Of a stretch of 64,000 nt of DNA, positions 1-64,000 are shown piece by piece. The stretch spans positions 1,984,001-2,048,000 of the forward strand of contig JAPEHQ010000001.1 in assembly GCA_027405735.1 (NCBI GenBank). Reading direction: 5' to 3'. Position numbers and translations under genes: made by a program. The notes beneath the pieces were generated by a model. It saw only the letters and a list, made by a program, of their open reading frames with translations, was not told the origin of the DNA and searched no databases. The DNA comes from Mucor racemosus. Taxonomy: Eukaryota > Mucoromycota > Mucoromycetes > Mucorales > Mucoraceae. Positions within the stretch are counted from its first letter, which is position 1. Each line of letters starts with the position of its first letter.

Positions 1-1526
1 GTCTCGGGTCAAAACCGCTCCGGATAAGTATTTGGGTGTACGAAAAAACAATTTTATCCGCTTTTGAATAAGGGATCTTATTATAGATTGTTGTTAAAAC
101 CGAGATTTCATATACATTCTAGATTGATGGAGTTTAAGCGTGCCTGAATCTTGTTCAATTATAGAAATCGATTCAAACTAGGAAATGTCATGTTGTATCA
201 TTCAAAGCCAGAGGAAACAATAAAGGCCATAAATAACCTCACAAAAGGTACACCAATCATTTTTTAAACATTTTCTCATACTTCTCAACCCAAAGATAAT
301 GATACATACATTAAAAATTATTATTTATTCAGCCACATTCATTCACCCAAGTTGTAACGATAATTGATAGTAAATTACAGTGACAATTTAAAAGTTTTTA
401 GAGCAAAAGACAATACAGAGAAGTTGTCATGTCAAAATCAATGAACTGATTCAACTCATGATTGCACTATTCGTAAATACAAACAAAAGAATCATATATG
501 ACCTTAAAATAACAAATGCTGGCAAAACCATCGTGATAACTAAAAATCTAGGCGGGGCTCATCAGGTGGTACACACTAACTGCCACTGCGATTATACATA
601 CGTAACTATCCATGTATTCCAATACTGTGCGAATATCAAGAATTCATAGATGACCTACATTGCCAATTGATAAATGTATATTTATACAAATACCTTTTTA
701 TGGGTTTGGCCAAGAGTCCCAAATTAAAGTAACAATACACACATAACCTTATCAACCAAACAGGGAAAAAAAACTAGATGTGGTGTTACCAATGATGGCA
801 GTCTTACATAACTACAATAATAGCTTGTGAGTAAGTGTACAATTAAGTTGCATGCATTTTTAAGCAGCTACAAGCATTGATAATACACCCAGTCCAACGA
901 AATATTGCAAGTTGTTATATGCCTAATACATTATTCACTTTCTTTTTTCATGTTTATACGTCTAATACATAATTTGGCCAGCCATTATACTATACGGTAG
1001 CAGTAGCGCATTTTTAGAAAATCGAATCTTTTTGCATAACTCACGGAAGGAACCAGGAAAACCTTGAATATGCAGTGCAACAAAAAAATTTAGAGCAGTA
1101 GACAATAGTTTTTGGTTTTTTGCATGAGGTGGAGATGGTTATTTACCATAAATACGATAATTTCAACATCTTTCTTTATAATTCTTAGATGCAGAACGTT
1201 GATAAGTATGAAAATTAAATTACTAAATACACCTAAAGCTAGTCAAGAGTATACATAAAACATTGCATTATTGTCAACATCAATAATTTGCAACAATTTT
1301 GACTCAAATTTCGTCGGCTTACCATACCTCGCCCGAAATTTTAATTTACAAGAATTGTATTTGCTAAACCTTCCAGTAAGATGTTTATTAGAATTGTGCA
1401 GCTTAAGTAGCATCGTTACATTTCTTAGAATATACCTTAGACACTGCCAGAAAGATGTGAACTGGCTGCATGATACTATCTGTTCCTGAAAATATTTTAG
1501 ATTCCACAAAAAATGAAAAACTGAAT
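1..1526. other. AT-rich stretch, no gene recognised
   Basis: No open reading frame here looks coding: those present are short, AT-driven and lack recognisable motifs or credible splice extensions. No tRNA or rRNA was seen. The stretch leads into an inverted, truncated copy of repeat family C. It may be older decayed transposon sequence, but I can show no boundary. Confidence 0.5.
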
Positions 1527-2035
1527 CTCACTTTTCATCCCTGCTCAACTTTTTTTTTCGATAAGTAACACAAGGAAAAAATTATATGCCAATGTAACTG
1601 AGATGTTCAACTTTAATTTGAAAACAAGTATCCAGAAATATCCTATTTTTTGCAGTTGGCATAATTTTTTTAGTGCTAATGTTTCAGATTTTTACACGTA
1701 TTTCACTGGTAAAAATTAAAAACTTTGAGGTTTCATATCTCTACGAAAAATTAAGCTATGCTAACACTTTTTGATAATAAAACCTACTTATTTTGACGTA
1801 TTGTATAACATATTTTAGTAAAACAAAGTTCCGAGCATTTTTATTTTTCTTCATTTTTTTGACATTTTTGTAGTAGATTTCAAAATATTCCTTAAATTGA
1901 GCATTGTTTTTTTTACATTTATGTCATTAACCTTGCTGAGCTCTCTCGGACTCAATTTAGTTTTTTTTTTGAAATATTGATTTTTCGTGGAGGTATCCTC
2001 AAAAATGTGTACAAAAAGATACCTTCGTGTAAGGA
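1527..2035 (-). repeat. Repeat family C, truncated inverted copy (C3)
   Basis: The reverse complement aligns by eye with 46645-47172 and with the corresponding part of 61360-62563. Shared landmarks are the block around 1525-1550 matching the GAATGAAAAGTGGGACC region of C1, the CTAAATTGGGTCTGAGAGAG-like block, and two copies of the TTTTTCGTGGAGAWAT motif. Those two motif cores (1739-1741 and 1989-1992) are 248 bp apart, as in the other copies. The copy stops near 2035, before the position where the second motif should lie. No coding capacity. Confidence 0.8.
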
Positions 2036-2299: not shown

Positions 2300-3702
2300 G
2301 TTATAATCAATGCTTTTTCGGTCTAAAGTCAATATCTACCTGGAGAAAAACTGGTGATTATAAAAGTATGTATAGCATTGACTTGATTTAAATGAATGAA
2401 TAAACTCATGTTAGTCTATTTAGTTTCTAAAAAGTATTTATTTCTATTTAGTGGCCAACAGCTAATAAGAAGAGGAAAACAAGGTGTTGTCTTGTATATC
2501 ACTACCAACTATCAAAGGTACATCATGATTATTATTTATTAGCTTGCTATTAATAATTGATTTTACTAATAAACCAATTTTTATAGGTCAAAAATAAGTT
2601 TGTTCTGATAAAGCATTGAATAAAAAATTGGCTTGGGACAAAGAGGGCAGAAAGGCGGCAATAGGTCCCAGTGATGGCCATGTTTATGTTTATGATGTTG
2701 GAGGGGTAAGACTAAAGCTTAATGTAAATCACCTCTAGCGCATTAACTATCAAGTAAGACTATATTATCATCAAATAAACCACCACACAATATTAACATG
2801 ATGTATAAATATTTACAGTCATAAGCTTGAATCAAGTGGTTCAGGATCATTAATTCTTGAAAAAGTTCTGAAGTATTATAAAATCTCTTATTTTTAAGCC
2901 TTACAAGGCTTATAAGCGGGATATTAATTTCAAAAATTATTCTTGTCCAGATCATCAATTTTAACATTTTTTAAATTTTTTTTTTCTGATTTTGCAAATT
3001 TAGAGTTAATTATACTACTAATTATAAAAACAAAAAATATACACATATACAGAATTTAGCGCTCTATTTGCTCAATAAAAAATAACAAACCTTTTTATTG
3101 CAAAATATTATATGAAAATCCTTTAATCAAAAAACCGTTTTTGGGCCAAAAATGCTAATTTTGATTACTTAAAATTTAATATTAAGCTTTTATAAAATGC
3201 GTATTAGTTATGGCTACAATTTGCTCTCATAATGTAGTATATTTAAACGTTGATTTTGGTATCAAAATTTGATTTTTCTGTTTTTTGATCAAAATCATGA
3301 GTGTTGGTAAGGGCAAAATGAGTCCCCAAAAATGTCCGCTACAAAAACTGAATTTTCAGACCGTACATGGTTAAATATAAGAAAATTTAAAAAAATATTT
3401 TTTTATTTAAAACTGATATACCATAGTATAAGAGACTTCTTAGTCGTTCAATCTTGCTGTCTTGCTATGCTCAATTACGGCGTCGCTCTACGGGCTCGCT
3501 TTCGCAATTTTTTAATGAATATATGATATGGCAGACGGTTTTTCTGGTAGAAAAATGCATGTTTCTATGATAACAGATATTGCCTATTTTGTTTAGTTTA
3601 TAGTTTATTCGCTGTAATACTGCTTTTAGATTGGTTGAAATGTGCAATTTAGCAGGGTTTTATTTGCGCTAAATAATGTAAAGCCTTGAAAATTCTTTTC
3701 TA
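2300..3702 (+). repeat. Duplicated segment A, copy 1 (empty site)
   Basis: Nearly identical to 7562-8003 joined to 14364-15323. Similarity starts at GTTATAATCAATGC and ends at CTTTTCTA on both copies. This copy has no retrotransposon: its CTCTAGCGCATTAACTATC (around 2737-2755) is the uninterrupted form of the site that was split at 8003/14364 in copy 2. It carries a decayed WD40 exon (2610-2705). Differences between copies are scattered substitutions and small indels. What moved the segment is unknown; no terminal inverted repeats were seen. Confidence 0.9.
2610..2705 (+). pseudogene. Dynein intermediate chain-like WD40 fragment, copy 1
   Basis: Thirty-two codons read KALNKKLAWDKEGRKAAIGP followed by SDGHVYVYDVGG. 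I recognise this as the pattern of a late WD40 blade of cytoplasmic dynein intermediate chains (ALNK-x-W-x-x-EGR, then G-x-SDGH-V-YD-G). A TTTTTATAG acceptor-like site lies just upstream, but an in-frame TAA precedes the fragment and nothing coding follows. This copy has one extra AAA codon relative to 7872-7964. It is best read as a captured exon of a host gene that has decayed. The assignment rests on motif memory, not a search. Confidence 0.6.
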
Positions 3703-6636: not shown

Positions 6637-7165
6637 GTTCATCGTAAGTTCTTAATCGGTTATCTGGACATGATCATTAGAGTTAGGAATTGTAAGGAAT
6701 GATGCATATCAACTTTATTTCAATTATGGAATAAAGTTGAGTGATTATATTATATATTAGATTTAGTCTAAGATGATGTAATATTATTTATGCTGAGCCA
6801 ATGTAAATTTTTACCTGCGATTCACATTGATTTTTTCTGTTATAAAGAATATTCTTCCGTTTAATCAATCATCAAAGAATATTCTTCTATCAACTTAACT
6901 TTGCCTCCTCCTTGTCGGAACTGGTTCTGGTCAATTTATTCCTATCAAAACCTCGTACAACTGGTCTTCCAACTTAAGAAATCAAGATTTAACTATCGAA
7001 TGTTACATCCTATATCCGCGCTCCTAAAGCATATAATACCTGATTTTTATACTCATAGTTTGACATCTTCATCCTTTTTTCCTTACATATACTTAAATAA
7101 ATATATCTAGTTCTAATTGTATTTTCGGCGGTTATCTTAAGTATATATATAAACAACTCTGATTC
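6637..7165 (+). repeat. Retroelement-like repeat G, copy 1
   Basis: Aligns end to end with the reverse complement of 63472-64000. It shares a short block that reads like coding DNA (TTGTCGGAACTGGTTCTGG) and a promoter-like AT block (ATATATCTAGTTCTAATTG). Length and promoter-like content suggest a solo LTR, but TG/CA ends and a target duplication could not be fixed, and the other copy runs out of the window. Confidence 0.7.
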
Positions 7166-7561: not shown

Positions 7562-7871
7562 GTTATAATCAATGCTTTTTCGGTCTAAAGTCAATATCTA
7601 CCTGGAGAAAAACTGGTGATTATAAAAGTATGTATAGCATTGACTTGATTTAAATGAATGAATAAACTCATGTTAGTCTATTTAGTTTCTAAAAAGTATT
7701 TATTTCTATTTAGTGGCCAACAGCTAATAAGAAGAGGAAAACAAGGTGTTGTCTTGTATATCACTACCAACTATCAAAGGTACATCATAATTATTATTTA
7801 TTAGCTTGTTATTAATAATTGATTTTACTAATAAACCAATTTTTATAGGTCAAAAATAAGTTTGTTCTGAT

Positions 7872-7964
7872 AAAGCATTGAATAAATTGGCTTGGGACAA
7901 AGAGGGCAGAAAGGCAGCAATAGGTCCCAGTGATGGCCATGTTTATGTTTATGATGTTGGAGGG
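7872..7964 (+). pseudogene. Dynein intermediate chain-like WD40 fragment, copy 2
   Basis: Same fragment as 2610-2705 without the extra lysine codon, so it reads KALNKLAWDKEGRKAAIGP then SDGHVYVYDVGG. The better spacing makes this copy closer to the presumed source exon. It has no flanking open frame and is not a functional gene. Confidence 0.6.
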
Positions 7965-7998
7965 GTAAGACGAAAGCTTAATGTAAATCACCTCTAGC

Positions 7999-8003
7999 GC
8001 ATT
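7999..8003. repeat. Target-site duplication (left), GCATT
   Basis: GCATT directly precedes the 5' LTR and recurs directly after the 3' LTR at 14364-14368. The empty copy near 2740 has a single GCATT, which proves the duplication. Confidence 0.97.
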
Positions 8004-8486
8004 TGAAGTGAACTAAGCTAGATTCCCATCATAAAATACCTAAATTAAATGTCATCTCATTTGAAACCATGCTATCAAAGATAAGACTATATAGTAAATA
8101 GACAATTGCATAAAGATAGCAAGGGTATAATACTCAAATAAGAGATGCTAAAATACTAAAGTAATGTGGGATATCCTAAATAAAAGATACAAAAAGTACA
8201 TGCTTATCAAGTAGAACAAGTAAGGGCTGTTCTGAAAGCATGATTGACAAACTATATTTAAAACACCGTTCTTGATCCACCAAATCAATAACCAAACAAC
8301 CCAACATTTATACTCAAAATTAATGGAATCGTTGACAATTGCAATGCAATTGCAAGATAGTAAATAATCACCAAATAATATAAATAGAGACGTAGAATAA
8401 CCATTTTATTGCACATTATCCATATTTTAATAAAGAAGGATTTTAACAGTATTCTTTATCGCTTTTTACACCCATATTTTACTGCA
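8004..8486 (+). repeat. 5' LTR
   Basis: 483 bp, TG...CA ends. It contains a TATA-like TATAAATA, an AATAAA (about 8429-8434) and the block GATTTTAACAGTA (8439-8451), which is complementary to sequence just after the LTR. No difference from the 3' LTR was seen by eye. Confidence 0.97.
8379..8386 (+). promoter_or_regulatory. LTR TATA-like box
   Basis: TATAAATA inside the 5' LTR, about 55-60 bp upstream of the predicted transcript start near 8439. The same sequence is in the 3' LTR. Function is inferred from position. Confidence 0.45.
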
Positions 8487-8504
8487 TTTTTTACTGTTAC
8501 AATC
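8487..8504 (+). other. Possible self-priming PBS
   Basis: Directly after the LTR, TACTGTTACAATC (8492-8504) is the reverse complement of LTR GATTTTAACAGTA (8439-8451) with one mismatch. There is no TGG start of a tRNA-type primer site. In Tf1-type elements the first bases of the RNA fold back on the PBS; this arrangement fits that model if transcription starts near 8439. Confidence 0.45.
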
Positions 8505-8526
8505 AAATCATTGATTTTTTTTTATT

Positions 8527-11500
8527 ATGTCAACCTCCATACTCTCTACTGGTAGTTCTCCTCTCTCGTCTCCTGAACCTGAAGATGCGTTGCCACCTAC
8601 TATCCCTGAAGAGGATATTGAAATGGAAAACTTACCCATTACTACCAAAAGATTAAATGACATGAATATTGCTGAATCCCCTGCTGCTACCATTGAAGAA
8701 GGTGAAGAAAAAGCTGAAGACAAAACACCTGAAGCTGCTCCACCCCATCCTGTTACCAAGTCTCCAACATTAACCGAAGTACTAAAAAAGGTTTTTCTCA
8801 AGAAGGAAAATGCACAAACTGCATATTTGAAAGCTCTATGTGATCCAAATGTTGATGATAATGAAGCGGATAAACTACGTGATACTGTAGCTAACTTGGA
8901 CAAGCATGTCAAAACCCTTTCTGACGGTCTTAAGGTTGCTTCTGCTGCTGCTGCTGCTACCACTACCAAGGTCTCTGTTAACTCATCATCTTCTGGTTTA
9001 AAAATCTCAAAAAGGGATCTTCCAAAATTTCAGTTGGAAGATAATAAAGCTAAACCTTTTCCAAATGAAGACGCCTATAAATCAGTGGATCATTTTCTGT
9101 CCGAATTTGAAAAGATAGTGTACTCTTCTGGTCAAGATATTGAAAATGTATGGCGGAAATACATTCCACTCACTTTGTCCTATGAATTGGATGATTGGAT
9201 GAAAACTGTAGTTTTGAAATCTGATAAATGGCATGATGTTAAGTTGGTCTTTAGCAAGAAATTTGGTACCGTTGTTTCAAGAATTCACAAAAGACGTGCT
9301 GTTATGAACATGGAGATTGGTTTCAATGAGTCCGTTGATGAATATTCTAATCGTTTCTTTCGTACTGTTGGTGAAGCCGGTTACAATCGTGATGATCTAA
9401 CCATTGGTGATATTTTTCTTCTCTCTTTACCTGAAGAATGGCAGTTAAACATTTGTACCGTATTGCTATCCAACACCAAGAGACAGGCCTGGACAACTAG
9501 TGAAATACATAATGCTGCTATTGATCTTCTCGGTGAAAAGACTCCCCATTCTTGGTTTGGCTCTAAAAGTGATTCTACAAAAAGAAAGTTTGCTTCTGTT
9601 GACAAGTTGTCATCTGGGTCCTCTGGTCCTCCTACTGTCAGCTCATCTGCTGTACCTACTCTACCTAAGGCAAGAATGCTAGGTGATCGTAACTTACCTT
9701 ATAAAGCCACCAAGAACTCAACACCCTGTCGTCATTGTGGCCGCCCTTGGAAGCATGGACACACTTGCGAAGAATATCGTATTGCAAAACGACAAAAGGT
9801 ACCATCTAGTGGTGTTAATGTATTATCTGTTTCAACTTCTGATAACATGAAAGAAGAAAATGAAACTGATTTGATGGCCCAAGCCTTGAAAGAAGTATAT
9901 GAAAATGATACTCATATCTGTAAGTCAAAAAAGACTAAAAATGAAAACAAAAACAATATGAAACTAATCACCCCACTCCTATTAAACAATAGAAGAATTA
10001 TCGGTAAAGTTGACCCGGGTGCCGACATTAGTTTTATTAACAAAAATATATTAAATAAAGAATTCTCAAATATTCAAACATATAAAACAACTGGTTATCT
10101 TAATTTTTTGTCTGTAAATGATGATAATAAAAATAGTACTGTAAAAAGAATTGGCAAAACAGAACCAATGGAAGTTACATATACTAATAACATCAAATTT
10201 ACTCATGTATTTGAAGTCATTGAATTTAATGATGAATTGTCTACTGAATTTGACGTGCTACTTGGTATCGATATTTTGCCAAAAATGAACATTTATCTCC
10301 AAGGTGTAGCATTTAAATTCCCTGATTCAGAAAGAGACAATGAATTAAAGCAATTTGAAGACATAAACCATGATAATGGAAATATATACAACCCAGAAAA
10401 AGCTGATTATGGTACACCAAGCGAAAGGAAAGAATTGTTAAATCATATTCAACCAGCTTTGGATAGAAACATGGCAATTCCTAGTGATGCAGCATGTACC
10501 ATGCCAGAATCAGTCGTAAAAATCAAAATATCAGACCCTAGTGATTGTTTCGTTCGTCAATATCCGCTTGCTGTGAATGCAGATGCAGAAATAAAAATAC
10601 AGCTTGAACAGTGGTTAAAAGATGGCATTGTTGAACGCACAAAACCTGATCCCACCTTCCATTCACCTTTATTAGCTGTTCCAAAACGTGATCCACTAAC
10701 AGGAAAAACAACTAAACTTCGAATCTGTTGTGATTTAAGAAGGATTAATGCTGCTATTTCTGATAAAGATTGTCATGAAAACTATGCTGTACCAAAAATT
10801 GATGAAATCTTTAGTAAAGTAGCTGGTCATGCTAATGTAATAAGTGTTCTGGATCTAAAACAGGCATACTTTGCGTACCCTGTATCACCTGAATCAAGAC
10901 GTTGTCTCATTTTTAGCTATAACAACCTGACTTACCAATGGTGTCGTGCCCCATTCGGATTAAAATTCCTTGTAAGCCAGTTTGTTTATACAATGAGTGT
11001 TTTGTTTGATGGTATTGAACAAGAATTTAAAACTGAATTAAAGAATTTGTATATCCAACAAAACAAAGATATTCGTCGGATTGATGATGAATTTCAAGCT
11101 GGAATTTCTCATTATTTGGACGATATCGTAGTTTGGGGAATAGACTCAACTTCAAGTTCGTTGATGCTCAAACTGGTAATAAATCGTTTAACCAAAGTAA
11201 ACTTGAGAATCAACATTGATAAATGTTCGTTCTTCCAAACAAGTGTATATTTGTTGGGCTTCATTATTAGCAAAAATGTAACCAAGATTGATACGAAACG
11301 ATTGTCAAATATCGATTCTTGGGAAATACCAAAAACAACAAAGCAAGTACGTAGCCTTATGGGTATTATAAGCCATTTAAGAAGCTATTGTCCAATGCTA
11401 TCTAAGATATCCGCTCCTATTGATAGTCTACGAAATGAGAAAAATATCACGGGAAAATGGACCCAATTGCACACTGATAGACTACAAAGAATTAAACAAA

Positions 11501-13515
11501 TACTCATGTCTAACCAAATCCTTTATGCGCCTGATCCATCACAACCATATTATATGCAAACTGATGCTAGTATACTAGGAATATCTGCATGTCTATTTCA
11601 AAAGGATGAATTTGGTCGTATTAAACATGTTGCATTTGTAAGCAGATCTTTGAATAGTGCCGAAAGAAATTGGTCTACAAATCGAAGAGAAACTGCTGCC
11701 ATAGTATTTGGCTTCCAAAAATATAAACCTCTTTTATGGGGTCATAACAATATAACTGTACTCTGTGATCATTTAGCCCTTACCTATCTGTTCACATCAT
11801 CTACATTAAATAGTACCCTCCAAGGTTATTTGGAAATATTGGGTGAATACAATTTCTCAGTAGCTCATATAAAAGGCATGGAAAATATTCTTGCTGATCG
11901 CTTATCGAGATTGTACCCTGCCATAACCGAAGATGAAGAGCTTGCTGATGAATACGCTCAACAAATCAAGAAATTAGAAAAAATAATCCTCTTGAGAAGA
12001 GCAAAAGAAAATCTAATTGTAAAACAAAAAAAGATTTATTCCAAAGATCATGACCTAAATGTACTTGCAGTCAAAATCGGTAGTAAGAAATTCAAAGAAA
12101 CCACAACTGATTATGTCTGCCCTCCTAAAAATGATCGTAAAAAGATAATCCATGATGCCCATAAAATTGGTCATTTTGGTATTGCAGCTGTTGTAAAACA
12201 TATCCACACTTATCATGGTCTTCATTGGAATACCATCTATAATGATGCCAAAGAAATTTTGATGTCCTGTAAGGAGTGTCAATTACATAACATTGCAAAA
12301 AAAGGGTTTAATCCTGCAAGAAGTGTTGTATCATACGAACCATTTGATTTTATCAGCATGGATATGATTGGGCCTTTACCTGTAACTGAAAAAGGGAATT
12401 GTTATATCCTTGTGGTTGTTGACATTTGTACAAAATACATTATTGCTCGCCCTGCACCCAATAAACAAAGTGATACCATCGCTAATCTGTTGAATTCAGT
12501 GTACGGGGATTACGGCTTGGCAGTAAATGTTACTTTATCTGATAATGGAAAAGAATTTAAATCAAATTTATCTGAATATATTTACAAAAAATTGAACATT
12601 GGAATGATCCAAAGCACTCCTTATTACGCACAAGGAAATGGCCACAGTGAAAACGCTGTGAAAACTGTTTCCGGAACGTTGAGAAAAATGTGTGGAAACG
12701 ATACCAAAAACTGGGATAATCGTTTGCCTATTGTTCAACTAGCAATCAATATGAAAGTCCGAGACCGTACAGCAAGTACTCCTTTTAGCTTGATGTTTGC
12801 TAGACAAGTAAATTTGGACCCTAAAAAAATAAATAGAAACAACAGGAAAGCTTTGACACTTGAAGAATTGCAAAAACGCGCTGAAACTATGAATGATATT
12901 GTCTTTCCTGCTATCCAACAAAGAACAAATGAATTAGCTAAATTATATCGCAAAAAATTCAATCAAAAACATTACATAATAGAAAACATTCCAGCTGGTA
13001 CACCTGTGATGATACGTTTTGCAGAAGGTCGATCAAATAAATTAGCTCCACTCTATTCAGGACCATATATTGTAGTAAGACGTACTCGAGCAGGAACCTA
13101 TGTACTAAAAGATGATGCAAATGAACTACTCCATCGTGAATATACACCTTCAGAGTTAAAAGTTGTATCTTTAGATGAAACAGCTCTTGAAGAAAAAGTA
13201 TACGAAGTCGAAGAAATCCGTGACCATCGTGAATTACCTGATGGTACCACTGAATATCTGACTAAATGGTGTGGTTATGGTGAAAGAGAAAATGACTGGC
13301 TCACACCTGATCTCTTCTCTACACCTACACCTATTGCAAACTATTGGAAAAAAGTAAAAGAACTTCGACAACGAGAAGCATTTAGAAAAGAAATCAATGA
13401 TACTTCAACCAAAGATACTGAAACCATAAATACATCTACCAAACGCAAATCTAAATCGCCTCAAACACAAATTTTTCGTCGTCGACAACGTGCAAAAATT
13501 TCAAAATCCAAATAA
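8527..13515 (+). CDS. Ty3/Gypsy gag-pol polyprotein with chromodomain
   Basis: One 1662-residue ORF with no frameshift. The N-terminal ~400 residues are Gag-like. A degenerate zinc knuckle starts at C401 (C-x2-C-x5-H-x3-C). The aspartic protease motif is D496-P-G-A, with proline where T or S is usual. Reverse transcriptase carries YLDD at 863-866. RNase H starts at TDAS (D1013). Integrase has a zinc-binding region around 1209-1260 (SCKEC at its end) and catalytic D1279, D1339 and E1375 (D-x35-E spacing). A chromodomain lies at about 1558-1605, with W1581 and W1591. Chromodomains of this class guide integration towards marked chromatin (family knowledge). The start is the first ATG, about 40 bp past the LTR. 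Nothing suggests inactivation. Confidence 0.97.
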   Translation: MSTSILSTGSSPLSSPEPEDALPPTIPEEDIEMENLPITTKRLNDMNIAESPAATIEEGEEKAEDKTPEAAPPHPVTKSPTLTEVLKKVFLKKENAQTAYLKALCDPNVDDNEADKLRDTVANLDKHVKTLSDGLKVASAAAAATTTKVSVNSSSSGLKISKRDLPKFQLEDNKAKPFPNEDAYKSVDHFLSEFEKIVYSSGQDIENVWRKYIPLTLSYELDDWMKTVVLKSDKWHDVKLVFSKKFGTVVSRIHKRRAVMNMEIGFNESVDEYSNRFFRTVGEAGYNRDDLTIGDIFLLSLPEEWQLNICTVLLSNTKRQAWTTSEIHNAAIDLLGEKTPHSWFGSKSDSTKRKFASVDKLSSGSSGPPTVSSSAVPTLPKARMLGDRNLPYKATKNSTPCRHCGRPWKHGHTCEEYRIAKRQKVPSSGVNVLSVSTSDNMKEENETDLMAQALKEVYENDTHICKSKKTKNENKNNMKLITPLLLNNRRIIGKVDPGADISFINKNILNKEFSNIQTYKTTGYLNFLSVNDDNKNSTVKRIGKTEPMEVTYTNNIKFTHVFEVIEFNDELSTEFDVLLGIDILPKMNIYLQGVAFKFPDSERDNELKQFEDINHDNGNIYNPEKADYGTPSERKELLNHIQPALDRNMAIPSDAACTMPESVVKIKISDPSDCFVRQYPLAVNADAEIKIQLEQWLKDGIVERTKPDPTFHSPLLAVPKRDPLTGKTTKLRICCDLRRINAAISDKDCHENYAVPKIDEIFSKVAGHANVISVLDLKQAYFAYPVSPESRRCLIFSYNNLTYQWCRAPFGLKFLVSQFVYTMSVLFDGIEQEFKTELKNLYIQQNKDIRRIDDEFQAGISHYLDDIVVWGIDSTSSSLMLKLVINRLTKVNLRINIDKCSFFQTSVYLLGFIISKNVTKIDTKRLSNIDSWEIPKTTKQVRSLMGIISHLRSYCPMLSKISAPIDSLRNEKNITGKWTQLHTDRLQRIKQILMSNQILYAPDPSQPYYMQTDASILGISACLFQKDEFGRIKHVAFVSRSLNSAERNWSTNRRETAAIVFGFQKYKPLLWGHNNITVLCDHLALTYLFTSSTLNSTLQGYLEILGEYNFSVAHIKGMENILADRLSRLYPAITEDEELADEYAQQIKKLEKIILLRRAKENLIVKQKKIYSKDHDLNVLAVKIGSKKFKETTTDYVCPPKNDRKKIIHDAHKIGHFGIAAVVKHIHTYHGLHWNTIYNDAKEILMSCKECQLHNIAKKGFNPARSVVSYEPFDFISMDMIGPLPVTEKGNCYILVVVDICTKYIIARPAPNKQSDTIANLLNSVYGDYGLAVNVTLSDNGKEFKSNLSEYIYKKLNIGMIQSTPYYAQGNGHSENAVKTVSGTLRKMCGNDTKNWDNRLPIVQLAINMKVRDRTASTPFSLMFARQVNLDPKKINRNNRKALTLEELQKRAETMNDIVFPAIQQRTNELAKLYRKKFNQKHYIIENIPAGTPVMIRFAEGRSNKLAPLYSGPYIVVRRTRAGTYVLKDDANELLHREYTPSELKVVSLDETALEEKVYEVEEIRDHRELPDGTTEYLTKWCGYGERENDWLTPDLFSTPTPIANYWKKVKELRQREAFRKEINDTSTKDTETINTSTKRKSKSPQTQIFRRRQRAKISKSK

Positions 13516-13657
13516 TATTCTACTAAAAATGATCTCTACTACCAAATCCAACATAATAACTCTTAATAAACAAAACTTTGATCCAATAAATCATTGAATC
13601 TCTTATCCTATATATATATATGTTCCTTTGTGCTCTAATCAATAGATCTATGATCTC

Positions 13658-13659
<2 letters not shown>

Positions 13660-13694
<35 letters not shown>
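13660..13694 (+). repeat. 35-bp poly(A) tract inside the element
   Basis: Uninterrupted run of 35 A between the gag-pol stop and the 3' LTR. It is flanked by two related blocks, ACTACCAAATCCAACAT (13540) and CTACCAAATCTAACATC (13699), suggesting a local duplication or patching during reverse transcription. Length could be inflated by assembly. Confidence 0.85.
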
Positions 13695-13696
<2 letters not shown>

Positions 13697-13869
13697 CCTC
13701 TACCAAATCTAACATCAATGGAAGAGGTATTCAAGCACAACATATAATAAATTTATCAAAAACAACAACAAGAAAAACAAAGTTTTTCTCTAACTAAAGA
13801 TTCCATTTCGGATTCTAGTTTTTCTAAATTTGCTGCATACTGGGTCAACGCAAAACTTGTTTGCGTTTA

Positions 13870-13880
13870 GCGGGGAGGCA
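13870..13880 (+). other. Polypurine tract
   Basis: GCGGGGAGGCA lies directly against the 3' LTR, where plus-strand priming occurs in LTR retrotransposons. It is the only G-rich run in the neighbourhood. Confidence 0.7.
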
Positions 13881-14363
13881 TGAAGTGAACTAAGCTAGAT
13901 TCCCATCATAAAATACCTAAATTAAATGTCATCTCATTTGAAACCATGCTATCAAAGATAAGACTATATAGTAAATAGACAATTGCATAAAGATAGCAAG
14001 GGTATAATACTCAAATAAGAGATGCTAAAATACTAAAGTAATGTGGGATATCCTAAATAAAAGATACAAAAAGTACATGCTTATCAAGTAGAACAAGTAA
14101 GGGCTGTTCTGAAAGCATGATTGACAAACTATATTTAAAACACCGTTCTTGATCCACCAAATCAATAACCAAACAACCCAACATTTATACTCAAAATTAA
14201 TGGAATCGTTGACAATTGCAATGCAATTGCAAGATAGTAAATAATCACCAAATAATATAAATAGAGACGTAGAATAACCATTTTATTGCACATTATCCAT
14301 ATTTTAATAAAGAAGGATTTTAACAGTATTCTTTATCGCTTTTTACACCCATATTTTACTGCA
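13881..14363 (+). repeat. 3' LTR
   Basis: 483 bp, same length and, by eye, same sequence as the 5' LTR. Ends in ACTGCA and is followed by the right GCATT duplication. Confidence 0.97.
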
Positions 14364-14368
14364 GCATT
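14364..14368. repeat. Target-site duplication (right), GCATT
   Basis: Repeats the GCATT at 7999-8003; after it the sequence AACTATCAAGTAAG continues exactly as in the unoccupied copy near 2743. Confidence 0.97.
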
Positions 14369-15323
14369 AACTATCAAGTAAGACTATATTATCATCAAAT
14401 AAACCACCACACAATATTAATATGATGTATAAATATTTACAGTCATAAGCTTGAATCAAGTGGGTACAGCATCGTAAATTCTTGAAAAAGTTCTGAAGTA
14501 TTATAAAATCTCTTATTTTTAAGCCTTACAAGGCTTATAAGCGGAATATTAATTTTAAAAATTATTCTTGTTCAGATCATCAATTTTGACATTTTTTAAT
14601 TTTTTTTTCTGGTTTTGCAAATCTAGAGTTAATTATACTACCAATCATAAAAACAAAAAATATACACATATGCAGAATTTAGCGCTCTATTTGCTCAATA
14701 AAAAATAATAAACACTTTTATTGCAAAATATTACATGAAAATCCTTTAATCAAAAAACCGTTTTTGGGCCAAAAATGCTAATTTTGATTACTTAAAATTT
14801 AATATTAAGCTTTTATAAAATGCGTATTAGTTATGGCTACAATTTGCTCTCATAATGTAGTATATTTAAACGTTGATTTTGGTATCAAAATTTGATTTTT
14901 CTGTTTTTTGATCAAAATCATGAGTGTTGGTAAGGGTAAAATGAGTCCCCAAAAATGTCCGCTACAAAAACTGAATTTTCAGACCGTACATGGTTAAATA
15001 TAAGAAAATTTAAAAAAAAGATTTTTTTATTTAAAACTGATATACCATAGTATAAGAGACTTAGTCGTTCAATCTTGCTGTCTTGCTATGCTCAATTACG
15101 GCGTCGCTCTACGGGCTCGCTTTTGCAATTTTTTAATGAATATATGATATGACAGACGGCTTTTCTGGTAGAAAAGTGCATGTTTCTATGATAACAGATA
15201 TTTCCTGCTTTGCTTATTTTATGGTTCATGCGCTGTAATGCTGCTTTTAGATTGGTTGAAATGCGCAATTTAACAAGGTTTTAATTGCGTTAAATAATAT
15301 AAAGACTTGAAAATCCTTTTCTA
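14364..15323 (+). repeat. Duplicated segment A, copy 2, right part
   Basis: Corresponds to about 2738-3702 of copy 1, with scattered substitutions and small indels. Similarity ends at CTTTTCTA on both copies. Non-coding. Confidence 0.92.
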
Positions 15324-25960: not shown

Positions 25961-26760
25961 ATGCAAGGTAGATATGTGTTTTGTTACAGAAATGCCAATA
26001 GACTTAATAATACTCTCAAAGCGACGTTTAAATATGGTAATTCAATTTTGATATTAAAAAAAATACAAATGCAGAAATCTGTATCAAACACAGCGAGCCT
26101 TGCTAGAGTTTTAATTAACTTTTATCCAGATTTTGACTCTGCATCGTGCTGTACAGTTTTCACAAAAAAAACTATTGCTAAAACTCTCCATAAATTTGAA
26201 GAGAAAATTTAGCTGTTTTTCGTCTAAAACTCATATTTTTTTAATATATATTGGCGCTAAAACACATTTAAAGCATGGCTGAAGCTCACAGATATCCATA
26301 AAGGTATTTTTTTTTTTTTTTTTTTTTTTTTTGCAATTGTAGCTATATTTTTCACGGAGAAATCAACTTTTGACCCGATTCTTTTTTTCAAATATTTGAA
26401 AACGAAGGATGACCATTTGTAGGCAGAAAATACTCGATACTAATGATGAACACTAACTTTCAAATTTCTCCATCAAAAATCGATATTTTTTTATTTAATA
26501 AAATGCATATAATAGATCTCACTCCGCACTACCAGACGAGTACAAGAATGCGTTACAGTTGTTATGTTTACACCTTTTAATCACCTGAAAACCTAATAAA
26601 AAATATGAGAAATTTAAAAAAATATAAAAAATCTTCTGAAATTACAATATATTGTACAGAGCTAAATGATAAATGTAGTTTGATTAATAGTTTTGTTGTA
26701 GAAACTTTATGTTTACTCGAGATATCACTCTTCAATCACGTCAAATTTAGGATGTAAATT
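25961..26760 (+). repeat. Repeat family D (divergent member of B/C set)
   Basis: Little continuous similarity to B or C, yet it keeps their layout. It has TTTTTCACGGAGAAAT (GGAG at 26356), then the inverted ATTTCTCCATCAAAAAT (CTCC at 26468), then TTTACTCGAGATATCA (GAG at 26719). A weak first site TTTTGTTACAGAAAT lies near 25978, and CTCTGCATCG (26137) sits where B and C have TCTGCATC. The intervals match those of B and C within a few bases to about ten. No coding capacity; short open frames are AT-driven. Confidence 0.6.
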
Positions 26761-28160
26761 ATAAGGTTAAATTTTTAAAGGATTTTTTTTACCTTTTTGA
26801 AGCATGACAAATAAATGTTACTGCCGCAATGTTGTTTGGAAGCACCAGATAAACATTCCCATATTTTTTATTATGTTGAAAAAGGAGGTTTTATGTACTA
26901 AATTAGCCATATACCAAACCTCAAATTTCAACTTCCAGTAGTCCAAGGTCTTTTTCCTCGAATTTGAAATGCTATTAGCAGCATAAATTCTAAAATGGAA
27001 AGGTCCAGAGCTCAAAAATCTGGGTATTGCTCATTAGGGCAGGACTGTTGGTATCTCTTTCAGGACTGTCGAAGTAATCACGACGAAAAATTTTTTCTTG
27101 CTATCTATTTAAACCATCCTTATTTTCTCAACATTTGTTGATTTCTTCTTTAATTGTATTGCACTCATGGTAAGTTGAACTAAATGTTGAAGAAAAAGAA
27201 AGGGAATTGGAAATGGAAGAATTATAAAATGATGCTTTTAGCAAAAGTATTTTTGTTGAATTTCTTCAAATGAACTACCAAACATGATTCCAATGACACT
27301 CTGAAAATAATTCTTGAACTTTCCAATTACTCTTTTTTTTTCTTTTAATAACTTATTTTGTAATAATTTATTAATCGTTTCTTGTAATTTCTTTTATAGT
27401 ATATTGGCTTGTACGTGTTTACTTTACTTTTTTTACTTTTCTAAATAAATAAACTATCATTTTAAATGTAACCTTGTTTTGTCTTTTTAAATGTTTTGCC
27501 TCTTTGATTCAGAACGGTATTTTTGGAACCCTTTTTACGGGTGCTGATGGTTTTATTTAATCAATCCATATTTTTTTCTTCGTTTCTTGATATCTGAAGA
27601 TGTCGAACATTGAGGTACTATAGTATCGTATCTTCATGTTGCTCTGGTTTACTCAACTCATTCTGAATATCCGAACCATTTGCTTTGCTTTGCTTTACAA
27701 CTTACTACAAGAATTGATAGGATTAAGTTGTTGAAGTTTCCAGCATTCTCTGAAATTGTTGAAGGTCTTTTTGTTAAACGAGTTAACTGGGAACAGTGGC
27801 CTACTAGTGTATCAAGACGTAGCAACGAGAATAATAATTCTAATTTTAATCAAACTGGTTGAAGTTCCATAAAGTTACATATAGAACACAACCAACCAGA
27901 ATGGATGTAACCAGTAGTTCAATATTTCTCATAAACTCGCATCAGGTTGTAGATAGTATTGCGGACACAATCGCAATCATTATGTGTCTTTCGATTGTAA
28001 TGTTCTTTCCGCGGTTACTTCGAATTAGTCGCTCTTTGTCCACAAATAATCACTTTTGGCTCGCAATTTTCAAATGACTATTTTGAAAATATGGATGGTG
28101 GTTCCAAAATTAAGGATTCTATTAACATTGTTGTGTTTTAACAATTATTTCTTTTTGAAT
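26761..28160. other. AT-rich intergenic with a coding-like remnant
   Basis: No intact gene. A coding-looking remnant lies at 27680-27862. The remainder is AT-rich without a recognised repeat partner in the window. Confidence 0.4.
27680..27862 (+). pseudogene. Unrecognised coding-like remnant
   Basis: The frame reads IDRIKLLKFPAFSEIVEGLF then VKRVNWEQWPTSVSRRSN, with balanced amino-acid composition and better codon use than its surroundings. Upstream in the same direction the frame is broken by stops, and no convincing splice sites join it to a longer product. I do not recognise the family; it may be decayed transposon or host sequence. Confidence 0.3.
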
Positions 28161-29044
28161 ATGATAGAGCTAGCTTACATATGTTGAGAATTTTTTGTCT
28201 CGTGAAAAAATACCGATTTTTCATTGAAAAAATGGGATTTCTATTCCAAATCTGCCATAAATAACAGTCGACTGGGTTTGAAATAAAAAAGTGCAAATCT
28301 CCAAAAAAATCGATCAAAAAATTTAAATCTTTAAATACGCAACAAAATACATAGTAAGTTGGATTAGCCTTCTAAATGTTTTTTGTGCAGCTTTGGATTC
28401 TGCATCGAATGACATAAATTTCAAAAGTTGTTTTCTCACAAAATTTAGCGTAAAATCGAAATGAAATTTTGAAGGTTTTTCGCTTTTTTCTCTTGAGTTT
28501 CAGCATCTTTCTCCAATATAACATATCTGGAAGATGGGCCGCAAAATTACCTACAGATCGAGATATTGCTTGCAACTGTAACTGCATTTTTCGTGGAGAA
28601 ATTAAAAAATTTGCATCATTTTTTTGGAATCCGAGAAAAAAGGACCTGTGGATGCTCATGAAAAATGTCCGGATAAATTGACTACCAATCATTTTGCACC
28701 TTTTTTTTTGTTTCTCCATCAAAAATTAGGATATTTCAGGAAACTAAATTGCTATGGATAGATATGCATCAGCACTATAACTTGAGCACAAAAAACGCGT
28801 TTGTCAATATACCAGTTATTTCTAAAACCACGTTCAAATATCAGAAAATGGGCAAAACATGGGATATCCAAAAAAAAAATTGATACTCAAATATGTCACA
28901 GACCTTCTTAAAACAAATAGATTCCACTAAAAATGAGCCCTGTATCTTGATTTTTCGTTGAGATATACTACTGCAAAGTTTTGATATTTAAGCAGGGACA
29001 ATGTCAACTCAGAAATCTAAAGGGTTTATTCTCGTTAATAGAGT
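28161..29044 (+). repeat. Repeat family B, copy 1
   Basis: About 880 bp nearly identical to 37922-38811 in the central 650 bp. It has four copies of the TTTTTCGTGGAGAWAT motif in order + + - + (T-runs at 28217 and 28587, CTCC at 28714, GAG at 28960). The open frames on both strands in the centre are the same in both copies because the copies are recent; they look non-coding. An ATG 39 bp past the fourth motif (29001) opens only 15 codons here. Confidence 0.9.
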
Positions 29045-37490: not shown

Positions 37491-37921
37491 TTTGTATATT
37501 TTTTTTTTTTCAGAAAAATAAAGAAAAGAAAAGAACTTTTTTTCAAACAGAAAAAGCTGCTGTTGCGGCAAATATAGGCTTCAAATCTACGTCACTTTGA
37601 ATACTTTTACTGTGACTCAAGAACAACCATACAAAATCCGTAGAAATTGGTATCAAATCCCTAAAAGTTGCTATTGTAAACCATAAAATATCATTACTGC
37701 TTGAATAATGTAGTAATAAATTAGGTTTATGACACATATTTTGACAATATATAGTAAAAAGATGCATGAGCACAAACCAAAGCTGTATTGGTAGCAGTTG
37801 CAAGAGCAAGAACAGTTGAATAAAATCACTCCTGATTGCAACCAGGCATTCTGCCCAACATAAAAGAGAGAATTTTAATTACAAGCAATTCATTGAAATA
37901 ACATTACTTTATTATTTGTGG
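37491..37921. promoter_or_regulatory. Upstream region of RBM39-like gene
   Basis: Holds the promoter of the minus-strand RBM39-like gene and then unassigned sequence up to repeat B copy 2. The minus-strand frame at 37543-37809 has no recognisable content. Confidence 0.4.
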
Positions 37922-38811
37922 ATATTATAGAGCTAGCTACAATATAACATACATTTTTTGTTTTGTGAAGAAATATCGATTTTTCATTGAAAAAATAGGA
38001 TTTCTATTCCAAATCTGCCATAAATAACAGTCGACTGGGTTTGAAATAAAAAAGTGCAAATCTCCAAAAAAATCGATCAAAAAATTTAAATCTTTAAATA
38101 CGCAACAAAATACATAGTAAGTTGGATTAGCCTTCTAAATGTTTTTTGTGCAGCTTTGGATTCTGCATCGAATGACATAAATTTCAAAAGTTGTTTTCTC
38201 ACAAAATTTAGCGTAAAATCGAAATGAAATTTTGAAGGTTTTTCGCTTTTTTCTCTTGAGTTTCAGCATCTTTCTCCAATATAACATATCTGGAAGATGG
38301 GCCGCAAAATTACCTACAGATCGAGATATTGCTTGCAACTGTAACTGCATTTTTCGTGGAGAAATTAAAAAATTTGCATCATTTTTTTGGAATCCGAGAA
38401 AAAAGGACCTGTGGATGCTCATGAAAAATGTCCGGATAAATTGACTACCAATCATTTTGCACCTTTTTTTTTTGTTTCTCCATCAAAAATTAGGATATTT
38501 CAGGAAACTAAATTGCTATGGATAGATATGCATCAGCACTATAACTTGAGCACAAAAAACGCGTTTGTCAATATACCAGTTATTTCTAAAATTACGATCA
38601 AACATAAAAAAAAACAGTAAAAAATAAAAGCGTGAATTTTTTTTTGTTACTCGAATATGGGAAAGACCTTCTTAAAACATGCAGATTCCACTAAAAATGA
38701 ACCTTTTATCTTGATTTTTCGCCGAAATATACTGCTGCAAAGTTTTGATTTTTAAACGGTGACAATGCCAACTCAGACATTTAAAGTGTATGTTCTCAAT
38801 AATGGAGTAAG
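37922..38811 (+). repeat. Repeat family B, copy 2
   Basis: Direct-orientation copy of 28161-29044, 9.8 kb away, nearly identical between about 37980 and 38590. Motif sites: T-runs at 37980 and 38350, CTCC at 38478, degenerate GAA at 38724. Intervals between sites equal those of copy 1. Its right end overlaps the start of a possible small spliced gene (38765). Confidence 0.9.
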
Positions 38812-44823: not shown

Positions 44824-46094
44824 GTTATATCGAAAAAATAGAATACAAAAGAAAAAGATAGTAGTAGAGAGTAAATAGAACAAAAGATCTTGACCTTCTT
44901 TATACCATCAATATTCTTTCCCAGCAGCAAGCAGAACAGCAAAAATCCTTGATCAGATGGACTGCTGGTTTATGGTTACTCAACGCACAACAAACAGAAA
45001 AATCCAGCCCTGCTTTTTGTACATACAGTATTTGACTGATGTTCCGAATATATCAATGTATGAATGAAACATTACAAATTATGTTATTATTTGTAACATG
45101 ATTTTTTTTTGAGAGACATCAGGGGTAAACACATTTGTCATAAGTTATAAAATATCTTACAATTTCTCCATCTTCAATCAAATACTTTTCTTTAATAAAA
45201 CAGCTCTGAACATTACATTTTTGATCAATAATAATTTTGTAAATGACAATGTTCGACATGAAATTCAATGATTTTAGTTGTTGAACCGTTTTGTTAGGTT
45301 GTTAGATAGTAATTGCTAGGTATTAAGCCCTCAATTAAAACAACAGTTACAGCTCTTATACCATTGACAGAGGTTTATTTCATATATTTTATTGTCATGT
45401 CCTGAGAGTTGCCATTTCATTTTTTTTTTTCGATTTTGCAGGGCCCAACCAAAATGCCAGCTATATAATTCTTGAAAAAAACACGAACGTTCACTGTCTT
45501 TAGTAAGGGAACACTGACAACAAAACTAATAATTAAACTTTCAATGTTATATTATAGTTTTATAATAAACTTACTATTTTTAGCTAGCTTTCATAATGCA
45601 TTCATATTCGGATCGCAAATTCCTTGAATATCCTAACGTGTTTGTGAACAGCGAAATGTACACTTTTCCATTTTCAAGTAGATATATGATTACTTTTCAG
45701 TAGACCTTTGATATACATCATATAGCTGCTCTCAATATATTTTTCAAATGCATGGCACTTTTCAAAGCTAATTATTTCTATACCATACACAATGCTTTCA
45801 TATCTCTTTAGTCGCTGCCCAACTCTAAATATGCATCCTACAATTCATCTCGTCACCTTGTCAAAAATCTCAACTTATTTAGATCATTATTTATTGCGAA
45901 ATCGATTTTCAAATGTTCTCTCTCTGCCTGAAAGGACAGATTTCTGTTTCTCATTTTATATATTATTCAAGAAACTTTATACAAGATAGGGAAAATGACA
46001 GATTTTGGATTTAAACAACTAAAACCAAATCGTAGAAGCTGATATTTGGCATATTGGAGAGACGACATACGACATTGACCAAAGTTGACCTAAA
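44824..46094. other. Intergenic, with left flanking repeat of C1
   Basis: Upstream region of VTC1, then AT-rich sequence. The block 45969-46065 (ACTTTATACAAGATAGGG...GCTGATATTTGGCATATTGG) recurs directly at 47370-47460, on the other side of repeat C1. No gene seen. Confidence 0.5.
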
Positions 46095-47295
46095 ATTGGT
46101 TATTAAAATTGAGCATCTGAATCGAGGTTTAACTTTTTGTATTCACAAGATAGATCCAACTCTAAGCTACTCTGTATTTTTTGTTGCAGCAAAAAGTATT
46201 AATTTTTTGTCGAGATAATCAAAATAATTGTTCTTGCCACAGCTTAAACCTTATAGTAACGGGCTTCCAAAATTTATTAGAAAAAATGAACGAAAAATAA
46301 TCCAAAAAAACAAAATCGTTAAATGTTCATAAACTGCAAAGTAAGTCAACCTAGCGTATTAAATGATTTTTGTACAGTTTTAAATTCTGCATCAACCTAA
46401 ATAAAATTCAAAAAAATGTTTCACGTAAAATTTTGCGTAAAATGTAATTGAAATTTTGGAGGTTTTTTGAAGATATAGAACGCATTTTTTAAATAAATTT
46501 TAAATATAAATAATAAAAATAATGTACAATAAGATTATATATTGATTGAGCTATTGTTGAACCTTCTAGCTGCATTTTTCGTTGAGAAAACGAGATTTTT
46601 GTCCAAATTTTTTGAAATTCAGAATTTAGGATGTGGGTATACAAGGGGAAAATTGAGGTTAGAAATGAAAGTATCTCTTTGTACACATTTTTGAGGATAT
46701 CTCCACGGAAAATCAATATTTTTAAAAAAAACTAAATTGGGTCTGAGAGAGCTCTACGAGCTTGATGAAATAAATTTAAAAAAAATGCTGCTCAATTCAA
46801 TAAATATTTTGAAATCTACTATAGAAATGCCAAAAAAATGAAAAAAAAATAAAAGTGCTTAGAATCTTTTTATATTAAAACATGTTATAGAGCGCTTTAA
46901 AACAAGCAAGTTTTATTATTAAAAAGTGTTAGTGTAGCTTAATTTTTTATAGAGATATGACGCCTCAAAGGTTTCAATTTTTAGCAGTAAAATACGCGTA
47001 AACATCTGAAACATTAGCACTGAAAAATTAATATCACTTGCAAAAAATAGGATATTTTTGGATACTTACTTTTGAATTAAAGCTGAACATCTCAGGTACA
47101 TTGACATATTATTTTTTCTTGGTGTTATTTAATGAAAAAAAAAAGTAGAGCAGGAATGAAAAGTGGGACCTAATTTTCAAGGAAGAAGTAATAAATTTCA
47201 CGTGCTTTGGAGTCTTTCGTGAGATGTAGAATAAATCTAGGGATAGGTAGCATTATGCGACCAATTTATACCTATTTAACAGCGTCTAATGTATT
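46095..47295 (+). repeat. Repeat family C, copy 1
   Basis: About 1.2 kb aligning over its whole length with 61360-62563 and, inverted, with 1527-2035. Motif sites: T-runs at 46203 and 46574, CTCC at 46701, GAG at 46952; order + + - +. It shares the TCTGCATC landmark (46388) and site spacing with family B although overall identity to B is low. No ORF of note. Related ~100-bp direct repeats flank it (45969-46065, 47370-47460). Confidence 0.85.
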
Positions 47296-48400
47296 TCCTA
47301 AAAAGCGTTTAATTTGAGGTTAGTTGTAGAAAAGAGGGCAGCTTCCATTTTTATTAACTATTTAAGAGACTTTGTACAAAATAGGGAAAAATGACAGGTC
47401 TGGATTCAAGCAACCAAAAACAATTCGTAGAGGCTGATATTTGGCATATTGGTGGGTACTACCAAGACATACATAAATGTGCAAGTTTGAGCTCATTTGG
47501 GTTAATGTGGGTTGAAAAAACATCCAATTTTCGTATCAACTCACTCAAGAATAGCAACTGATTAACGAAATTACAACAGGTTAGGTAGCCGTATTCAATG
47601 TCCTATTCAGAATATTTTTCAACTTACAGTTAGATTCACAAATCGCATTCAAGAGTAAATATGCAACATGCTGTATTTCCATTTTAATGCTCTTGTAAAT
47701 TCGTTATTTGTGTTTCTGCTCCCCTCCAACCTTTTCCGTAAAAAAAAAATGGGGATGTATTTGATGCACGCTTGAAAATGTATTAGGTCAACTTGTTTCT
47801 ATTTTTCTAGTTTTTTGATGGTCTAAAATTGTCCAAACAGTTGATTTCGCCGTGAGGTATACATAATTACAAGGTAGAAGGCACGAGCCATCACAATCGA
47901 GCTTACAAAAGCCCACCATGTCATTGAGTTGCATAACACAAATGATCTATCTATCATAACAATTGGCTATTGGAGAGGAATTGAAGTGAGCTGCTTTATA
48001 TAGGAGCGTCTCGGTGGCGAGTATGTGGTAATTAAAAATTGCTTAGCAGCTGCTTTTTATGGCTTCTGTGTAGCTATTACGTTTTGTTGAGAGGTCATAG
48101 TTACTTGTGCTATCCCTTACTATGATAATAACTTCAATGCAAGCATGCACGACTTTATTGGTCAATACAGACAATAATTGGAATCCGCCATGTATGCGTT
48201 CTTATTTCACATACTTCAATGACAAAATTCAAAATATCTAATATAATATTGAACACAAATTATACTTATTTGAAGATAATACATAAGAATTAATCAGTTT
48301 TGTACATGTACATGTATAATGGGGGGGATAATTTATTATTCATAAAGATTATAATATATATATATATATATATTCAAGTAATAGTATTTAATATGTGTAG
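47296..48400. other. Intergenic, right flanking repeat of C1
   Basis: Contains the second copy of the flanking repeat (47370-47460). Beyond about 47800 base composition is more balanced, but no coding frame could be supported. A G run (48320-48327) and an AT microsatellite (48350-48372) lie in the 3' region of the SIP5-like gene. Confidence 0.4.
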
Positions 48401-63471: not shown

Positions 63472-64000
63472 ATCTGTTTTTATATATACTTAAGATAACC
63501 AGCTAAAATACAATTAGAACTAGATATATTTATCTAAGTATATTTATAAGGAAAGAGGATAAAGATGTCAAACTATTATGAGCATAAAGATCAGGTATTT
63601 ATTTGTTTTAGGAGAGCGGATATAGGATATAATATTTGATAGTTAAATCTTGATATCATACGTTGGAAGACCAGTTGTAGGAGGCTTTGATGGGAATAGA
63701 TTGACCAGAACCAGTTCCGACAAGGAGGAAGCAAAGCTAAGTAGATGAAATATTCTTTGATGATTGATTAGATGGGAGAATATTCTTTAATAATAATGGA
63801 AAGAAACAATGTGAATCGCAGATACAGATTTACATTGGCCCAACTTAAATAATACCACATCATCACCTTATTGGACTAAATATAATACATAATATAATCA
63901 CTCCACCCTATTCCATAATTGAGTTAATGTTTATATGCTTCACCCCTTACTGTCCCTAACTCTAATGATCATGCCCAGATAACCAATTAAGAACTTACGA
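63472..64000 (-). repeat. Retroelement-like repeat G, copy 2 (inverted, runs off the window)
   Basis: Reverse complement of 6637-7165 with scattered differences. It reaches the last base of the window, so its outer boundary is not visible. See copy 1 for content. Confidence 0.75.

Follow-up and report, generated by a model that had tools for sequence, protein, structure and literature searches.

Six diverged repeats lie scattered over the 64,000-nucleotide stretch of Mucor racemosus DNA analysed here (the window), which sits on a 7.1-Mb contig of a genome of 53.2 Mb in 54 contigs, and all six carry the same short motif at nearly the same distances; the question that this locus raises is whether such an array is kept for what it does where it lies, for what it does for the repeat, or simply by descent. 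Among named records, one protein encoded in the window comes closest to those of Mucor and Parasitella (82% to Parasitella parasitica, 81% to Mucor circinelloides and 93% over 72% of the query to M. plumbeus), and a further record matches it at 99%. The reading that I favour on balance, though with no great confidence, is that these are members of one old family of non-coding repeats, a non-autonomous mobile element whose array would be docked by a trans-acting protein and whose spacing would be needed for copying.

The site consensus is TTTTT[CG][GA]TNGAGA[AT]A and the sites follow one another in the order + + - +, with a further + site in the C type, giving four sites per core and five in C; the core of the family measures 0.9-1.1 kb. 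All of the elements lie outside the open reading frames of at least 130 amino acids in the window, at the following positions:

46072..47352, plus strand: C1, a full C-type copy, with limits set by homology to 37 other loci
about 46132-47200, plus strand: conserved core of C1
46203..46218, plus strand: site 1 of C1
46575..46590, plus strand: site 2 of C1
46697..46712, minus strand: site 3 of C1, inverted
46943..46958, plus strand: site 4 of C1
47113..47128, plus strand: site 5 of C1
61402..62596, plus strand: C2, a C-type copy, with sites at 61473 (+), 61845 (+), 61968 (-), 62212 (+) and 62382 (+)
1418..2028, minus strand: C3, the right half only of a C-type copy, with site 3 at 1981 and site 4 at 1735
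28143..29044, plus strand: B1, a B-type copy, with sites at 28217 (+), 28587 (+), 28710 (-) and 28951 (+)
37912..38808, plus strand: B2, a B-type copy, with sites at 37980 (+), 38350 (+), 38474 (-) and 38715 (+)
25961..26815, plus strand: D, a very old relative, with sites at 25978 (+, weak), 26348 (+), 26464 (-) and 26710 (+, weak)

A scan of the window at up to three mismatches returned 22 motif matches, compared to a mean of 3.09 and a maximum of 8 in 100 shuffles, which bears out the phased four-site layout that a preliminary description had proposed for the six elements. Measured from start to start on the plus strand, the three intervals are 370/123/241 in B1, 370/124/241 in B2, 372/122/246 in C1 and 372/123/244 in C2, with 116 between sites 2 and 3 and 246 between sites 3 and 4 in D, and again 246 between sites 3 and 4 in C3. 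The first interval (370-372) agrees within 1-2 bp with the one originally put forward; the values given for the second and third differ from mine by offsets that hardly vary (6-7 and 5 bp), which measuring mirrored points on the reversed site would produce, and the 248 given for sites 3-4 of C3 departs from that offset by 3. A count of four sites is correct for B and D but not for C, where a further, fifth site (47113 in C1, 62382 in C2) was overlooked earlier; it is present at up to three mismatches in 21/38 loci. C1 had been drawn too short (46095-47295), since homology extends further, from 46072 to 47352. Site 1 is weaker than the other sites in B, where it is picked up by a degenerate motif and missed by the scan at up to three mismatches, and it is weak also in D (3/15 mismatches at 25978), 370 bp from site 2.

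In a gap-tolerant comparison with the C consensus, B1 and B2 are 63-64% identical over 875 and 840 aligned positions (E 3e-72 and 1e-73) and D is 58% identical over 710 (E 2e-19), while B2 and B1 share 92% identity. Since the three types are detectably homologous, their likeness is not one of chance, and on sequence evidence all three belong to a single ancient family of interspersed repeats. The size of this family becomes apparent genome-wide, where the 16-base motif has 834 + 837 exact matches (about 31 per Mb) and its reversed control 0 + 0, the eight exact matches examined, which were the first ones, all lying inside C-family copies; a 27-base C site-3 pattern at up to three mismatches has 1492 + 1493 = 2985 matches, with 0 for the control, and a B-type site-2 pattern has 238 + 250, many among the matches listed being C-type variants. 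An initial look turned up 3527 C, 1315 B and 6 D candidates, of which 40, 40 and 6 were scored, and nearly all copies discussed here were chosen by similarity or by motif rather than at random. C copies are about 85% alike and B copies about 75%, and D has five weak partial matches in the genome besides itself; by these copy numbers and likenesses, together with the few weak relatives of D, the family is old, and I infer that it has been active over a long time. Matches are spread all along the contigs listed, and the viral contigs hold no match to a 22-base form. Local departures from this spread occur on the contig labelled C1 (a contig, not the copy of that name): three exact C site-3 matches at 6135411, 6139267 and 6143123 are exactly 3856 bp apart, likely a recent tandem amplification, and in the first 3.2 Mb the gaps between neighbouring exact motif matches include an excess at 8-9 kb (8/99, 2.4 expected) and none below 2 kb (6 expected, counting exact matches only).

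Motif and spacing were proposed to be better kept than the remainder of B, C and D, and identity comparisons, indel counts and simulation all agree. Across 32 aligned C copies, the difference from the consensus is 0.050 per copy in motif columns vs 0.095 elsewhere (p 0.003 after adjustment for base and CpG). Among five B copies (B1 and four fetched copies, B2 being dropped as a recent duplicate), with the motif columns defined from C, pairwise identity is 0.911 in 63 motif columns vs 0.729 in 734 others, a value as high as which appeared in 0/20000 block permutations; at 91% vs 73%, the motif evolves more slowly than the rest, the opposite of the outcome named beforehand as fatal to the proposal. 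The same holds between families, where identity in the motif and in the rest is 0.80 and 0.57 for C with B1, 0.77 and 0.57 for C with B2, and 0.79 and 0.51 for C with D. When 16-base blocks are ranked by conservation over B, C and D, sites 2 and 3 take the top two places, with site 4 in fourth and site 1 in tenth, the TCTGCATC landmark is moderately conserved at rank twelve, and further core blocks besides the motif are also well conserved.

Spacing, too, is preserved in further copies, with 372/122/245 in the C consensus and 369-375/122-138/239-241 in B copies, next to 370/116/246 in D; within C the gaps differ by a few bases, the first gap having a range of 14. Indels of at least 2 bp per substitution amount to 27/1433 in the core, 52/533 in the right flank (nine loci) and 27/587 in the left flank (8/10 loci), a deficit in the core of 2-5-fold per substitution (Fisher p 4e-12 against the right flank and 0.0014 against the left). 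The core figures combine three sets taken without selection by core similarity (7/457, 10/434 and 10/542, as distinct indels per minimal substitution), leaving out cores that were too broken at 2/9 right-selected, 1/8 motif-selected and 1/10 left-selected loci. At the right-selected loci there are 0.090 substitutions per site in the core and 0.059 in the right flank, so the core is not slow overall and it is core length that is kept. A neutral indel simulation, which uses flank indel rates with an approximate indel-length list and is a guide only, puts the joint probability of the three spacings at 0.0013 to 0.0051, or at 0.02 to 0.17 when the first interval is set aside, site 1 of D being weak.

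Conservation alone leaves two explanations that were offered together from the start, a selected function and very old common descent, and each has gained support, the former from the keeping of motif and spacing and the latter from the homology of B, C and D. Where selection acts can be approached through the age of the variants, and for this purpose 52 C copies, chosen via similarity or motif and not genome-wide, were compared after one near-identical duplicate was dropped, calling a variant private when seen once and shared when seen in two or more copies. In the motif, 40 private variants were seen (observed/expected 0.84, p 0.086), when about 25 would be expected if they were depleted like the shared ones, for which observed/expected is 0.52 (p 0.006); in 395 B-conserved columns outside the motif the ratios are 0.99 for private (p 0.37) and 0.71 for shared variants (p below 2e-4). 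Without the eight copies found by exact motif the figures are 0.85 and 0.54 in the motif and 0.95 and 0.71 in the other B-conserved columns. Recent mutations are thus almost free to fall anywhere, unlike older ones, and since shared variants are depleted and private ones not significantly so, constraint seems to act on the copies that get copied rather than on residence. Counting against the mobile-element reading, the motif signal is weaker when each distinct shared variant is counted once (0.74, p 0.058), the other B-conserved columns then standing at 0.81 (p below 2e-4). Also to be set against it are the ragged copy ends, the substitution rate of the core beside that of the right flank, the conservation of further core blocks, the dependence of the spacing simulation on the first interval, and the choice of copies by similarity or motif.

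These same numbers bear on the view that the host maintains the family, each copy being kept for what its phased array does on the spot between genes, for instance in serving as a platform for chromatin, replication or silencing. Such a platform would accord with the high copy number (about 31 exact motif matches per Mb), with the position of the elements outside the long reading frames of the window, with the conserved spacing and with the excess of 8-9 kb intervals (8/99 vs 2.4), but private mutations near neutrality (0.84 in the motif, 0.99 in B-conserved columns) are not what residence under selection would leave, halves, sites or ends have been lost in C3 and other copies, and B copies are just about 75% alike while D has nothing closer than its five weak partial matches, so that I consider host maintenance rather unlikely. 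In particular, the silencing-type role in each resident copy that the preliminary description had listed is disfavoured by the contrast between 0.84 and 0.52, and a selfish non-autonomous element with phased sites for a mobilising protein fits better than a host element; among the functions proposed at the outset, which included the binding of a transposase or replication factor, a candidate mobilisation site is the one that fits best as judged from sequence.

What the array might be otherwise was explored at the level of protein, RNA and tandem structure. There is no codon periodicity in the core and no long reading frame common to the copies, the longest frames differing between copies; in right-flank windows the variable sites are much alike across the three codon positions, and a Pfam scan of two left-extension frames and one right-flank frame (L023, L044 and L056) found no match. 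On these grounds (no periodicity, no common long frame, no Pfam match) a coding remnant was rejected. Selection on an RNA fold, with the sites pairing within a transcript, finds some encouragement in the C consensus, where a 25-base inverted repeat (96%) links site 1 with site 3, and in the predicted fold of C1, which pairs the site 1/3 region; however, neither strand of C1 has an unusual fold energy when each is set against 20 shuffles (z -0.80 and +0.18), and the differences between B and C at sites 1 and 3 come, by eye, without matching changes. On the ordinary z-scores folding was rejected, the earlier suggestion of it having gained no support, and I regard an RNA element as highly improbable. 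No Rfam family was found in the window at gathering scores; sub-threshold matches were to 5S, lying outside the core, and in L053 to one Histone3 stem-loop. An internal tandem origin of the sites was also rejected, there being no internal period or lag signal among them, and the flanks of the sites are unlike one another except for the site 1/site 3 pair; likewise the window contains no head-to-tail array of the kind that defines a tandem satellite, and local clusters of copies exist elsewhere in the genome.

Inverted similarity between left and right flanks was found at 0/38 loci, in a comparison that repeats under about 15 bp would escape, and direct flanking repeats at 1/38 (2/114 in the control). 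The one case is C1, flanked by a 105-bp direct repeat that is 84% identical (45954-46057 and 47349-47452) and absent at the other 37 loci tested. A long terminal inverted repeat (TIR) or a long target duplication as the rule was rejected, the 105-bp repeat being peculiar to C1 among the 38 loci. Copy ends are too ragged to place a short target-site duplication; this is so above all on the left, the right ends falling mostly near relative position 1180-1330, and copies extend both ways by differing amounts (1311 first-look candidates with left and 327 with right extension). No autonomous partner was found in the loci examined. The arms of an inverted pair enclose a DDE_3 (Tc1-like) fragment in L059, those of a palindrome a gag ORF in L060, and both look like separate insertions. 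In its workings the family resembles a non-autonomous mobile element that is recognised at internal sites, yet it misses the tested hallmarks of TIR elements, long terminal repeats (LTRs), SINEs and satellites.

Some copies come with a segment of 5S rRNA gene origin, antisense to the core, at 9/9 right-extended loci (L050-L058) and also at L006, L021 and the L027/L036/L049 group. It corresponds to the first 65-80 bases (the 5' part) of the host 5S rRNA gene, against which it scores 77 (shuffled maximum 26), and is placed for example at:

L051, 1707-1808, minus strand: 5S-derived segment
L057, 2599-2705, plus strand: 5S-derived segment

A relationship of this segment to the core was rejected, the likeness not going beyond shuffles, and lying antisense and outside the core it does not provide the Pol III head at the element end that a SINE would have.

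The segment has been one reason to think of retroelement remnants, with a larger element having left either solo or paired LTRs or its RNA, retroposed with 5' truncation. A direct pair lies at one locus, its members 3478 bp apart and sharing 95% identity along 1651 bp (99% in the central 950), two other loci showing the same order, and ragged left ends with right ends mostly near 1180-1330 would suit such an origin as well. However, the two members of the direct pair agree almost fully in the middle but not at the ends, a pattern that indicates conversion rather than insertion; there are no TG..CA ends or matching target duplications at the pair, and a tblastn search with the window's one gypsy protein found no match in the loci. 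With flanking direct repeats at 1/38 loci and diverged pair ends, the defined ends and matching duplications of an LTR are lacking, and a retroelement origin is unlikely.

How do these features compare with the nearest named kinds, set apart here by their general descriptions and not by their sequences, except for the Mucor transposons, for which a paper was used? CACTA/En-Spm and hAT Ac/Ds DNA transposons carry arrays of subterminal transposase-binding motifs, and the resemblance lies in a short non-coding motif in both orientations that seems needed for copying and not for the host, but the family described here has no TIR, target duplication or transposase of its own that could be found, and its sites are few, wide and nearly rigid in spacing, inside a 1-kb core. 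Similarly, MITEs and other non-autonomous DNA elements are non-coding, reach thousands of copies in subfamilies of differing age and compare with the position between long ORFs in the window; the present copies are longer (1.1-1.3 kb, and more than 3 kb with flanks), ragged at the ends and with TIR undetected. Solo LTRs, TRIMs and LARDs share the non-coding nature, the length of about 1.2 kb and the occasional direct pairs, but not the absence of defined LTR ends nor a pair identity that peaks in the middle. The 5S-derived SINEs (SINE3) have their counterpart in the right-extended version, except that the 5S segment here lies on the strand opposite to the core, outside it, and in part of the C loci only. 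The Grem-LINE1 and LTR transposons are likewise repeats of a Mucor genome, and they encode proteins and Grem-LINE1 is centromeric (PMC11943222), whereas the present family is non-coding and found all along the contigs listed. The titles and abstract openings listed by literature searches describe no such repeat, although most of the subscription literature lies outside that search and this is no proof of absence.

Gene-conversion mosaics are frequent among neighbouring copies. Among neighbours 3-10 kb apart, several agree almost completely in the core but not in the flanks, with patchy tracts: windowed identity between L012 and L014 runs at 98-100%, then 83%, then 100%, with unlike flanks, and copies a and c of the P region are 66-68% identical on the left and 97-100% further right. 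Members of the C7 cluster are 0.918 alike, compared to 0.844 to others. Long inverted arms of 1.3, 2.8 and 3.5 kb are 99.9%, 98.7% and 99.8% identical; at L060, L063 and L064 (contig C1:1000000-1019000), 2.8-kb arms (98.7%) enclose the 1.9-kb middle with the gag ORF and are followed by a third copy with part of the core, and at L027, L059 and L036 (contig C1:6751894-6766528), 3459-bp arms (99.8%) that stop, on their outer side, close to the left end of the C core hold the DDE_3 fragment inside. That such inverted near-identical pairs might be the ends of a big transposon was first favoured and then dropped, the limits differing between the two pairs and the interiors looking like unrelated insertions.

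Conversion might instead have the leading part, with the core spread and renewed mainly by ectopic gene conversion that the motif array promotes, for instance as a break or recombinase site, and the patchy neighbours, the C7 cluster, the near-identical inverted arms, the ragged ends and the exceptional flanking duplication can all be read in this way. Conversion, however, requires a resident copy and cannot alone seed thousands of unlike-flanked places, some neighbours remain unlike (0.798 for L001/L002, 10.5 kb apart, and 0.828 for C1/C2, 15.3 kb apart), and repeats commonly undergo conversion without any special motif, which makes this account quite improbable. No better prospects can be given to a selfish non-coding element without classical ends whose array recruits a recombination or break-inducing factor, so that homologous conversion among copies would be the main route by which the core spreads and is renewed; such an element would be a parasite of gene conversion whose phased code is conserved, and I likewise find it doubtful.

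To return to the non-autonomous mobile element docked by a trans-acting protein, the steps that are directly supported are copy number, homology, the conservation of motif and spacing, the intolerance of the core to indels, and constraint on shared and not on private variants. The sites would be docked by a protein acting in trans (a transposase, recombinase or replication factor), the gaps would set the geometry for assembling the complex and, if the spacing is needed for that complex, only copies that have retained the array would be copied, while a resident copy would decay and often swap tracts with near neighbours by gene conversion. The transposition step itself is one that I infer, since no autonomous partner, TIR or general flanking repeat was seen. 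If this reading is true, an early-diverging fungus would harbour a very large family of repeats that is driven by an array of non-coding sites, with a spacing that outlives sequence and with no ends recognisable as those of a transposon; in repeats that neither proteins nor termini allow one to classify, comparing shared with private variants would directly separate selfish signal from host function; and the motif would be specific enough for fishing out its binding protein.

Other repeats lie in the same window. At 8004-14363 there is a Ty3/gypsy element with a chromodomain, a single 1666-aa frame and identical 483-bp repeats at both ends, from which its insertion is probably recent. It seems to split another repeat, 2300-2777 resembling 7562-8038 and 2740-3702 resembling 14364-15323 at 95-96%, and a further dispersed repeat is found in inverted orientation at 6642-7155 and 63475-64000, 85% identical.
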